From: Variovorax sp. S12S4
GTDB taxonomy: Bacteria; Pseudomonadota; Gammaproteobacteria; Burkholderiales; Burkholderiaceae_C
Direction of reading: 5' to 3'
DNA length: 64,000 nt
Assembly (NCBI RefSeq): GCF_023195515.1
Contig: NZ_JALPKR020000002.1
Coordinates: forward strand, 186,001 to 250,000
Shown: in pieces, positions 36,920 to 64,000 of the stretch
How positions within the stretch are numbered: the stretch's first letter is position 1
Layout of the letters: every line of letters begins with the position of its first letter
Position numbers and translations under genes: made by a program
The notes under the pieces: model-generated
What the model was told of the DNA's origin: nothing
Seen by the model: only the letters and a program-made list of their open reading frames with translations
The model's database searches: none

Positions 36920-37057
36920 TTGCCAGGGGCGGCGCAGCCGCCGCCCAATCCGAAAACAGAACTATTCATTTTCGGAGCGAGTGTCTCTTTCAGGCACGCA
37001 CATGAGGTTCCCAAACCTTTATCGCACCTCGTTGGGCAGCGGTTAAGGTTACACTTC

Positions 37058-37076
37058 AATAAGAATAATTCTTATT
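37058..37076. promoter_or_regulatory. Fur box upstream of siderophore ECF sigma gene
   Basis: AATAAGAATAATTCTTATT is a perfect palindrome (9-1-9 around A37067) matching the Fur box architecture. It lies 86 bp upstream of the sigma factor ATG in a 242-bp gap otherwise without genes. Fur-iron repression of the sigma gene, and through it the siderophore locus, is inferred by analogy with pvdS. Confidence 0.82.
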
Positions 37077-37161
37077 CAACCATCCGCGTCACCCTTCGCT
37101 CTGACGCCGGTGACCGGCCGGGAACCACCACCACTGCGAATGCTTGCGAGAAGGCGATCGG

Positions 37162-61500: not shown

Positions 61501-61912
61501 GCTCGGCCGCGTCGAGCACGCTGAGATCGGCGAAAGGAATGTCGATTCGAACCTCTTCCAGAACGCGCTGCTCCGGCAGGCCTTCAGGGCCGGAAGCGAA
61601 CACGGTTCGCAATGCGTCGTGGCGTTCGGTGAGCGACTGCATTGCAGCCTGCAGCGCCCCGATATCGAGCGGGCCTGAAAAACCAAGCCCGCCGCCGACG
61701 TGGTACGCCGTATTGGCGGGGTTCAGCTGCCACAGGAACCATTGGCCCTGCTGCGCGAAGGAAACGGGGGCGGGGCCGGCGTTGTGGCCGCGCACGATGC
61801 TATCGCGCGCGGGTGCCGCATTGCCGCCCTGCTTCACCCGGCTTTGCAGCAGTCTCAGCTGCTCGGGCGACAGGCGCGCGCGACGTTCGGAAAGGTGAGA
61901 TGTCTCGCTCAT
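58580..61912 (-). CDS. Nonribosomal peptide synthetase, C-A-T module with serine code
   Basis: 1110 residues. C domain about 45-465 has HHIISDAW in place of the usual HHxxxDG, that is Ala for Gly in the active-site motif. A domain about 485-990: [30 protein letters not shown]. The specificity residues D-V-W-H-V-S-L-I-D-K equal the classical serine code. T domain Ser in FELGGHSL about residue 1047. No epimerase, so L-serine is expected. It accepts the chain from the PKS upstream; its ATG overlaps the PKS stop by 4 bp (ATGA). The 90 extra codons to 62182 belong to the PKS reading frame's shadow. Confidence 0.92.
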
Positions 61913-64000
61913 GATGAAAAACTTGCGGTGATGCGGTCTGTTGCCGGTTGTGGGTCTGCGGTGGCCTCGGCCTCGCGCTCGATCTCTTCGATCAGCCGCA
62001 GTTCGATCAATGCGGCCAGCTCGGCCACGGTCGGCGCCTTGAAGAAATCGGCAGGCTGCAGCTCGACGCCATAAGCCTTGCGCACGCGGGACAGCAGTCG
62101 AATGGCCAGCAGCGAATCGCCGCCGAGTTCGAACAGGTTGTCGTGCGCGCCCACGGGCGAGATGCCAAGTGCCTCGGTCCACAGCGCAGCCAGGCCTTCT
62201 TCCAGTTCGCCTTCAGGGGCGGCATACGCGGTGGGCAGCGCGGGGCGTGAATGGCTGGCACGGGCTTCGCCCACCGATACCACCGATGGGGCGCCCGCTG
62301 CATCCTGGGCCTCCACCGCATCCAGCAGGTTGCCCAACGGACGAAGGCGCGGCGCGAGAGCCGAAACGGACACCACCGTCTGCGGCAGGTCGGGGCCGTT
62401 GACGATGCGTTCGAAGGCGAGCACGCCGGTGCGCTCGTCCAGGCCGACGCCCTCCGGCAGGTCCATGTCGGCCGCTGAGCCCACATCGCGCCATGCATCC
62501 CAGTTGACCGAAAACACCGGCAGCGCCGATGTGCGGCGGTGCGCCGCAGCCAGTGCATCGAGATAGGCATTGGCAGCCGCATAGTCGCTGCGGCCCAGCC
62601 CGCCGGCGAGCTTGGCAATGGAAGAACAGAAGAGCACGAAGTCCAGCGGCTCTTCGCGCAGGGCTGCAAGCAGCTCGCGCGTGCCCGCCACCTTGGGGGC
62701 GAACGCCGCTTCCACCTGGGCGCGGGTGCGCTGGGCGATCATGCCGAGCCCCGGGTCCATCACCGCGTGAACCACTCCGTTGACGGCGCCGAAGCGCGCA
62801 TGCGCCGCCGCGAGGGCATCGCGCAGCTGCGCGGCATCGGTCACGTCCGCCGTGACCGTCAGCACCTGCGCGCCCGTCGTTTCGAGTTCGATCAGCTGCC
62901 GCAGCTTGCGCCGCAGTGCAGCGGGCTCACCGGACGATGCGGCAATGCGCTCCCAGTCGCCGCGCGCGGGCAGCGGCGTGCGGCCGAGCAGCACGAGGCG
63001 TGCCTTCCATGCGCGGCTCAGGTGCCGCGCGAGCGCAAGACCGACACCGCCCATTCCGCCGGTGATGAGGTACACACCGCCTTCGCGCAAGCGCTGCGTG
63101 GCGGCCTGCTTGGGCAACGGCTCGTAGCTCTTGAGCCAACGGTGGGGCCCGCGATAGGCCACCACGAAATCGTCTTGCGCAGACACCGCCTCGTCGGCGA
63201 CGCGGCGCGCCAGATCGCTTTCGGCCGCGCTTTCCGATGCGGGCACCACCACGTCGATCACGCGGCAGGAGACCGACGGATATTCCTGGCCCATGACCTT
63301 GGCGATGCCCAGCAGGGTTGCCTTCGCGGGCACCAGCGCCTCGGTGCCGGAGACGTCCTCCAGGCCATCGGTGACGATGGTCAGAGCCGTTGGAGCACGG
63401 CCCGGCAAGCCCAGGGCGTCGAACGCATGCACGAGCGCGAGCAGGCTGAAGTAGCCATTCTCCAAAGCGTCCGCATGCGGCGGCGCGGGCCGGCCGCCGT
63501 CAAGGCTCCACAGATGGTGGATGTGCCGCACCGGGCCTGCCTCGGCTTCCACTTCGCGCAGCAGCGCTTCATGGTCGGCGCGCTCGGTTTGCCGCAGGGT
63601 GTATTGCCGCGGCGCGGTGCGCGCGAAGCGCGGGCCTCGCAATGCCAGCACCACCTGTTCGCCGCGCTCGCGCAGCGTGCGTGCGAGCCGGTCGGTGAAG
63701 CTGTCGGCATCGCCCAGGATGAGCGTGCTGCCTGTTCGCTCCGCAGGTTTTTCGGAGGGCGCTGGCGGTGTGCTTCGCTGCCAGTGGGGTGCATAAAGAA
63801 TGTCGGCGTCTGCGCTTGGCGAAGAAGGCGGTGCGGTCTTGCCCGGCTCCACCCAGTAGCGCTGGCGCTGGAAGGCATAGGTCGGCAGAGGCAGGCGGCG
63901 GCGTTGGCCGCCCTCCTGGTTCGCAGCCCAGTCGATGTCGACTCCGGCCGTCCACAGGCCCGCAACCGCATTTGCTAATTGCTGGCTGTTGCGCGCGGTC
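61909..64000 (-). CDS. Type I polyketide synthase module, AT end-KR-ACP; 5' part outside window
   Basis: At least 696 residues visible; the frame is open past the right edge through LPLPTYAFQRQRYWVE, the standard linker after an acyltransferase domain, so AT and KS lie beyond base 64000. Then the KR structural half (ADILYAPHWQ ...), and the catalytic KR with YLITGGMGGVGLALARHLSR and CSSIAKLAGGLGRSDYAAAN containing the Ser/Tyr/Asn residues. No DH or ER is present. The carrier domain has FELGGDSLLAIRLLSRVRKA (Ser). It would extend a chain by a beta-hydroxy ketide unit and pass it to the serine module. Its 5' end, earlier modules and promoter are not visible. Confidence 0.93.
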   Translation of the reverse strand, partial: TARNSQQLANAVAGLWTAGVDIDWAANQEGGQRRRLPLPTYAFQRQRYWVEPGKTAPPSSPSADADILYAPHWQRSTPPAPSEKPAERTGSTLILGDADSFTDRLARTLRERGEQVVLALRGPRFARTAPRQYTLRQTERADHEALLREVEAEAGPVRHIHHLWSLDGGRPAPPHADALENGYFSLLALVHAFDALGLPGRAPTALTIVTDGLEDVSGTEALVPAKATLLGIAKVMGQEYPSVSCRVIDVVVPASESAAESDLARRVADEAVSAQDDFVVAYRGPHRWLKSYEPLPKQAATQRLREGGVYLITGGMGGVGLALARHLSRAWKARLVLLGRTPLPARGDWERIAASSGEPAALRRKLRQLIELETTGAQVLTVTADVTDAAQLRDALAAAHARFGAVNGVVHAVMDPGLGMIAQRTRAQVEAAFAPKVAGTRELLAALREEPLDFVLFCSSIAKLAGGLGRSDYAAANAYLDALAAAHRRTSALPVFSVNWDAWRDVGSAADMDLPEGVGLDERTGVLAFERIVNGPDLPQTVVSVSALAPRLRPLGNLLDAVEAQDAAGAPSVVSVGEARASHSRPALPTAYAAPEGELEEGLAALWTEALGISPVGAHDNLFELGGDSLLAIRLLSRVRKAYGVELQPADFFKAPTVAELAALIELRLIEEIEREAEATADPQPATDRITASFSS

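Follow-up and report, generated by a model that had tools for sequence, protein, structure and literature searches.

Which siderophore is encoded by the hybrid polyketide synthase (PKS) and nonribosomal peptide synthetase (NRPS) locus of Variovorax sp. S12S4, and in what does it differ from the siderophores described for the genus? The locus takes up positions 36,920 to 64,000 of the 64,000 nucleotide stretch analyzed here, referred to as the window (contig NZ_JALPKR020000002.1, positions 186,001 to 250,000; G000:C2:186001-250000 of the 5.97 Mb genome). It appears to be a siderophore line of a known kind, the acidobactin type, and what seems new is that its terminal ligand was probably swapped by natural recombination and a light-sensitive iron-binding residue was replaced.

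Gene content and predicted chain

An initial annotation, made from the sequence of the window, had described a hybrid PKS-NRPS hydroxamate siderophore locus with Fur-type control and a colinear chain, belonging to the siderophores of the Comamonadaceae. This description is supported, and all genes named in it were found at their places by profile searches and open reading frame starts. The sequence was extended to the right, as had been proposed there, and the cluster was found to continue beyond the right edge of the window; the next 40 kb were read, of which mainly the first 10.5 kb were used. The synthetases and the hydroxamate-forming enzymes within the window are:

46612..50712 (-) NRPS4, C-A-T-TE, A-domain code DVWNIGLIH, ornithine (Orn) type (Pfam, codes)
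50712..58580 (-) NRPS3, C-A-T-E-C-A-T, codes DGEGSGGVT (Orn type) and DFWNIGMVH (Thr) (Pfam, codes, E motif)
58580..61912 (-) NRPS2, C-A-T, code DVWHVSLID (Ser) (Pfam, codes)
61909..64000 (-) PKS, KS-AT-KR-ACP, 3' part within the window, gene start at extended position 66516, i.e., contig C2:252516 (Pfam)
40845..41774 (+) N5-hydroxyornithine formyltransferase, PvdF-like (PDB 6cul, pyoverdine synthetase F, 417 bits over 273 residues)
41771..42814 (+) N-hydroxyornithine acyltransferase, GNAT of the SidF/MbtK type (PF13523, 1.6e-54; PDB 7qf6, SidF, 2.8e-48)
42827..44161 (+) L-ornithine N5-monooxygenase, PvdA-like (PDB 3s5w, which we take to be PvdA, 437 bits vs. 320 for the best lysine enzyme)

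The first synthetase, NRPS1, is located to the right of the window and has the architecture FAAL-T-C-A-T; the best PDB matches of its initiating domain are of the FAAL type, among them the fatty acyl-adenylate ligase 3pbk and FadD32. The chain is thus not opened by a beta-hydroxy ketide, as had been assumed initially, since this NRPS precedes the PKS. All five synthetase genes (NRPS1, PKS, NRPS2, NRPS3 and NRPS4) are open and their start and stop codons overlap by 1-4 bases, as in one operon.

The specificity codes were read by alignment to the NRPS4 A domain of this locus and additionally by regular expression. In chain order they are DVWNIGLIH, (PKS), DVWHVSLID, DGEGSGGVT with an E domain, DFWNIGMVH and DVWNIGLIH, followed by the TE; the E domain is the third 'Condensation' match of NRPS3 and was recognized by its motif. 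We take DVWHVSLID as Ser, DFWNIGMVH as Thr and, for the relatives described below, DLTKVGHVG as aspartate (Asp), and the AT motifs GHSLG and AFHS presumably indicate a malonyl-type domain. The Ser and Thr called in the initial annotation agree with these codes, and the two residues it had left open, 'D-X' and 'Y', both carry Orn-type codes. DVWNIGLIHK and DGEGSGGVTK are listed among the codes of those Orn domains that can accept N-delta modifications (PMC12283262). Graminine was rejected as the substrate of DVWNIGLIH because its published code is DVHRTGLVAK (PMC10391617).

An Asp-type A domain was not found in the cluster, nor was an aspartate beta-hydroxylase, the sole TauD-family match of the genome being located at C2:2717969, about 2.5 Mb away. 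MbtH and phosphopantetheinyl transferase (PPTase), likewise listed at first as missing from the window, are encoded just outside of it. The Orn N-monooxygenase gene is located beside NRPS genes, a receptor gene and an exporter gene, the combination by which hydroxamate-type nonribosomal peptide siderophore loci are recognized. The predicted product is acyl-OHOrn-(reduced ketide)-Ser-D-OHOrn-Thr-OHOrn (OHOrn, hydroxyornithine), with three hydroxamates and no beta-hydroxyaspartate, and Fe(III) would be bound in a hexadentate manner by the three hydroxamates.

Last module and TauD gene in related genomes

Among the best 80 of 581 matches to the PKS in named genomes, the closest relatives are Variovorax sp. 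Root318D1 and V. paradoxus DS1452 (88% each), V. beijingensis (77%) and Variovorax sp. SG517 (76%). In Root318D1, DS1452 and V. beijingensis 502 the locus is the same, with the accessory genes and one common neighbor on each side (ParB-like on the right, GST on the left). V. beijingensis 502 has the same first modules, whereas its last code is DLTKVGHVG and a TauD gene is located between PPTase and NRPS1.

In a search of 101 Variovorax genomes, 25, including that of S12S4, were found to contain a nearly full-length PKS at ≥74% identity. Nine of these have a last module of the Orn type (Orn-end: S12S4, G189, G181, Root318D1, DS1452, G236, G238, G187 and G231) and seven one of the Asp type (Asp-end: V. 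beijingensis 502, G179, G177, G160, G159, G205 and G239); one is cut, six are of a Thr-Orn-Orn type or cut, and two are of another kind. An eighth Asp-end line was found in Rhizobacter. TauD is missing from the region in 9/9 Orn-end lines, and whole-genome TauD searches of these nine genomes gave no match at the cluster, whereas 8/8 Asp-end lines have a cluster TauD. It stands directly before NRPS1 in all eight and also in five more distant lines (Azotobacter, Thauera, two of Cupriavidus and G206). Correspondingly, the gap between PPTase and NRPS1 is 0-3 nt in 9/9 Orn-end lines vs. 1016-1025 nt in the six measurable Asp-end lines. The Asp-end codes read DLTKVGHV with G, H or M as the last residue, and in G239 the fourth module has DGEANGVVS in place of Thr. 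The A-domain finder misses some domains, namely the fourth module of Rhizobacter (the third being poorly aligned) and the later modules of G122.

Outside of these nine and eight lines stand G183 (contig ending before the last module), SG517, G213 and G182 (Thr-Orn-Orn), G122, G163 and G234 (cut or partly read), G188 and G164 (other order, other TauD), and a group of about 65% identity that was read in part. SG517 (L037), G213 and G182 represent a third type at this locus, FAAL-Orn-PKS-Thr-Orn-Orn, without TauD and without an acyltransferase match in the stretches read. Apart from these, G178 (C1:4683503 region) has three DVWNIGLIH modules and no cluster TauD, and its close PKS relative G225 (C22:116460 region) has an Asp module with an embedded TauD, possibly a second, independent ligand exchange.

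The accessory proteins of S12S4 and V. beijingensis differ in their degree of identity. Hydroxylase (84%), acyltransferase (79%), formyltransferase (82%) and the first sigma factor (89%) are more similar than the receptor and the FhuF protein (64% each); to the receptor of Root318D1 the identity is 93%. The divergence of receptor and FhuF from those of V. beijingensis would fit a changed ligand.

Limits of the probably exchanged tract

The identity of the synthetases to those of V. beijingensis is 85% for NRPS1, 79% for the PKS, 76% for NRPS2 and 78% for NRPS3. Along the line, the mean identity of the S12S4 sequence to the Asp-end group drops from 0.82 to 0.15 at about residue 2562 of NRPS3, lies between 0.14 and 0.64 across the C and A domains of NRPS4, and rises again, from 0.57 to 0.78, at about residue 1027 of that protein, within the A-T linker. 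The T-TE part shows values of 0.42-0.82, with the lowest one at the very end. To the other Orn-end lines the mean identity is 0.63-0.98 between these two points, the nearest two lines (G189 and G181) being left out. The region delimited in this way by identity breakpoints and C-domain clades is:

47634..50897 (-) exchanged tract of about 3.3 kb with approximate limits, C-terminal tail of NRPS3 and C-A of NRPS4

The TE is 57-67% identical to the Asp-end TEs, and other TEs were matched only in G164 and G188 (28-29% with the S12S4 query, 31-32% with the V. beijingensis query); by these values T-TE is orthologous between the Orn-end and Asp-end lines. A tree was calculated for 94 C domains of 21 lines, by a quick method without bootstrap and with a warning of long branches. 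In it, the terminal C domains of the Asp-end lines group with those of the Asp modules from Azotobacter, Cupriavidus and G206 (support 99), whereas those of the Orn-end lines are located elsewhere. Because of the identity breakpoints, the orthologous TE and the separate C-domain clades, the NRPS3 tail and C-A of NRPS4 look as if they had been exchanged as one piece.

An internal duplication of module 1 was considered as the origin of the terminal A domain and is not supported, since the NRPS1 A domain of S12S4 is 82% identical to it, a value similar to those of other Orn-type A domains in the genus. A separate observation concerns G236, of which the NRPS1 A domain is 87% identical to the NRPS4 A domain of S12S4, compared with 79-83% for the other NRPS1 A domains listed; gene conversion between its first and last module is possible.

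Recombination among NRPS genes is in itself a well-known process (PMC8097286, PMC11366639, PMC2174460). For an Asp-to-Orn exchange in Variovorax siderophore lines, no published report was found among the matches listed in the literature searched.

Relation to known siderophores

Variochelin, imaqobactin, variobactin and vacidobactin of Variovorax are carboxylate-hydroxamate siderophores (PMC7824959), which are called photoreactive (PMC10999976), and an Asp hydroxylase is reported for variochelin, acidobactin and variobactin (PMC10999976, PMC4598715). The closest description is that of acidobactin and vacidobactin (Acidovorax citrulli AAC00-1 and V. paradoxus S110; PMC4598715), of which the full pattern is present in V. 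beijingensis at the same locus: acidobactin has Orn at position 2 and Asp at position 6, as does V. beijingensis if the FAAL is counted as 1 and the ketide is left out, the match being one by description. The S12S4 line likewise has a FAAL initiating domain and Orn at position 2 (DVWNIGLIH), followed by a PKS with KS-AT-KR-ACP.

That S12S4 carries an ordinary cluster of this type, with two Orn and one beta-hydroxyaspartate, would agree with the order FAAL-Orn-PKS-Ser-D-Orn-Thr shared with V. beijingensis and with the published positions 2 (Orn) and 6 (Asp) (PMC4598715). Yet it is very unlikely, because the last A domain reads DVWNIGLIH instead of DLTKVGHVG and the cluster contains no TauD, whereas position 6 of acidobactin and vacidobactin is occupied by beta-hydroxyaspartate, formed by a hydroxylase. 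Of the initial proposal, 'that family or a new member', the family can be narrowed down to the acidobactin/vacidobactin type; the line departs from it by a third Orn-type module that replaces the beta-hydroxyaspartate module and its hydroxylase.

A variochelin- or delftibactin-type cluster is almost certainly not present, even though these occur in the same genus or family, have a PKS after the first amino acid and, in the case of delftibactin-like clusters, are also flanked by two sigma factors. Variochelin (V. boronicumulans, Variovorax sp. H002; PMC10999976) shares the fatty-acyl start, the PKS-extended gamma-amino acid and hydroxyornithines with the S12S4 line, but Arg before the PKS, Pro, beta-hydroxyaspartate and the TauD embedded in VarG belong to variochelin only. 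It was ruled out since the A domain before the PKS has a code listed for Orn and the PKS shows no TauD match. Delftibactin and delftichelin (PMC13122642) likewise have two flanking sigma factors, a PKS after the first amino acid, and formyl- and acetyltransferases; they differ by an Ala start, a stand-alone beta-hydroxylase with Asp, and a longer peptide. Neither the Arg, Pro and VarG TauD of the former nor the stand-alone hydroxylase with Asp of the latter was found in the S12S4 cluster.

Among the same best 80 of 581 matches, Azotobacter chroococcum DSM 2286, of the crochelin producer species, has a related FAAL-A-PKS line (PKS 59%). It differs by a Ser-type code before the PKS, after which come Thr, an Asp module accompanied by TauD, and another two modules. 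Crochelin, represented by this putative locus, was dropped as the closest match due to the different codes.

Probable direction of the change and proposed biosynthesis

In the PKS tree, calculated by a quick method and with a chosen outgroup that did not fall on one side of a branch, the Orn-end lines form one clade (SH-aLRT 100), whereas the Asp-end lines are found on three branches, with Rhizobacter as sister to the rest. Since, in addition to this branching, TauD also stands directly before NRPS1 in distant lines, module exchange with loss of TauD is the likelier direction. The reverse, an ancestral Orn end with a gain of Asp end and TauD by the V. beijingensis group, G239 and Rhizobacter, is unlikely: the C, T and TE of the Asp-end lines, including those of Rhizobacter, match one another, and TauD has the same position in Azotobacter, Thauera, two Cupriavidus lines and G206. 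In its favor, the direction is not fixed by the PKS tree alone, and lines without TauD before NRPS1 (SG517 type, group of about 65%) stand beside both groups.

With gene content, codes, tract limits and the distribution in the lines read as the observations, we consider it quite probable that the S12S4 locus is a derived acidobactin/vacidobactin-type line with an exchanged third iron ligand, directing an iron-regulated tris-hydroxamate lipopeptide siderophore. The FAAL would load a fatty acid and module 1 would add an N5-hydroxyornithine-type residue, which the PKS would extend by malonate with reduction of the ketone. Four residues would follow, namely Ser, a hydroxyornithine-type residue in D configuration, Thr and, at the end, a further one of the hydroxyornithine type, and the TE would release the chain by hydrolysis or as cyclo-hydroxyornithine. 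As the hydroxamates would be made by the PvdA-, PvdF- and SidF-like enzymes, it is proposed that three hydroxamates bind Fe(III) and that no beta-hydroxyaspartate is made. The ancestor would have been a line ending in Asp with a TauD hydroxylase, in which an Orn-type unit took the place of one tract, the NRPS3 tail and C-A of NRPS4, and from which the TauD gene disappeared.

Several points weigh against this reading. A-domain codes are predictions, and so is the product; for position 2 of acidobactin, GNP predicted Ser first, which was then corrected to Orn (PMC4598715). The 17 lines are kin, so that the co-occurrence of last module and TauD counts as roughly a single event in the Orn-end clade and not as 17 independent observations. 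TauD is also missing before NRPS1 in the SG517-type lines and the group of about 65%, and its history is therefore not one simple loss but includes more than one loss or gain. No donor of the tract was found, and the C domain that comes closest from outside the clade has 64-65% identity. Finally, the exporter frame (38273-39961) is broken twice in this assembly, with the start and ATPase part in one frame and the membrane part (about 39202-39800) in another. This may reflect a decaying system in S12S4 or an assembly error. A decaying, non-producing locus, to which the two frame shifts would point, is rather unlikely, as the five overlapping synthetase genes are open and the exporter shifts cancel each other, with one open frame in 4/4 relatives read, as assembly errors would look.

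The more general proposition, that one Variovorax locus keeps the acyl-Orn-ketide start and swaps ligands by recombination, always with three bidentate ligands (Orn-end, Asp-end, Thr-Orn-Orn), is about as likely as not. It would include the replacement of the Asp unit and TauD by a hydroxyornithine unit, the breakpoints lying in the inter-protein tail and the A-T linker, and a change from a photoreactive to a light-stable tris-hydroxamate siderophore. At least nine Variovorax genomes with a line lacking beta-hydroxyaspartate would change the iron photocycling expected of this plant-associated genus. The exchange would also represent a natural experiment for NRPS engineering, in which a C-A swap takes along the matching inter-protein tail and keeps the native T-TE, and it goes with the absence of the tailoring gene made useless by it (TauD).

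Regulation, transport and neighboring genes

The further features of the locus within the window are:

37058..37076 (strand not assigned) Fur-box-like palindrome AATAAGAATAATTCTTATT, upstream of the first sigma factor gene, one mismatch between the strands
37162..37779 (+) ECF-type sigma factor 1 (Pfam Sigma70_r4_2, 4e-15)
38018..38263 (-) small conserved protein of 81 aa, beside the exporter in relatives too
38273..39961 (-) siderophore exporter of the cyclic-peptide export ABC type (TIGR01194 above cut-off)
40145..40873 (+) FhuF-type ferric-siderophore reductase (PF06276 and TIGR03951 above cut-off)
44240..46528 (+) TonB-dependent siderophore receptor, FhuA/FoxA-like (TIGR01783 above cut-off)

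The palindrome was found in 0 of 100 shuffles, this control having been made after the pattern was taken from the sequence by eye, and it may be bound by Fur. A search with an E. coli-type Fur consensus (≤3 mismatches) gave no match in the window, and no copy of the palindrome was found in the right-hand stretch (L003). Before the second sigma factor gene, an AT-rich stretch has a weaker resemblance to a Fur box, as judged by eye only. The top-scoring models for the receptor are FhuA and FoxA, neither of which reaches its own cut-off, and the 81 aa protein has no Pfam or NCBIfam match.

Within 10.5 kb to the right of the window edge, genes for the PPTase, a type II TE, MbtH, a second ECF sigma factor and a short FecR-N-like protein (DUF4880, below cut-off; L003 9574-9837 (-)) are located. 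The two sigma factors are thus each adjoined by a short protein (38018-38263 (-) and L003 9574-9837 (-)), and these might be stripped-down sigma regulators. Elsewhere in the genome, a second PKS/NRPS region (G000:C2:5446535-5455987) contains a KS-AT with 49% identity to the PKS of this locus and two condensation domains.

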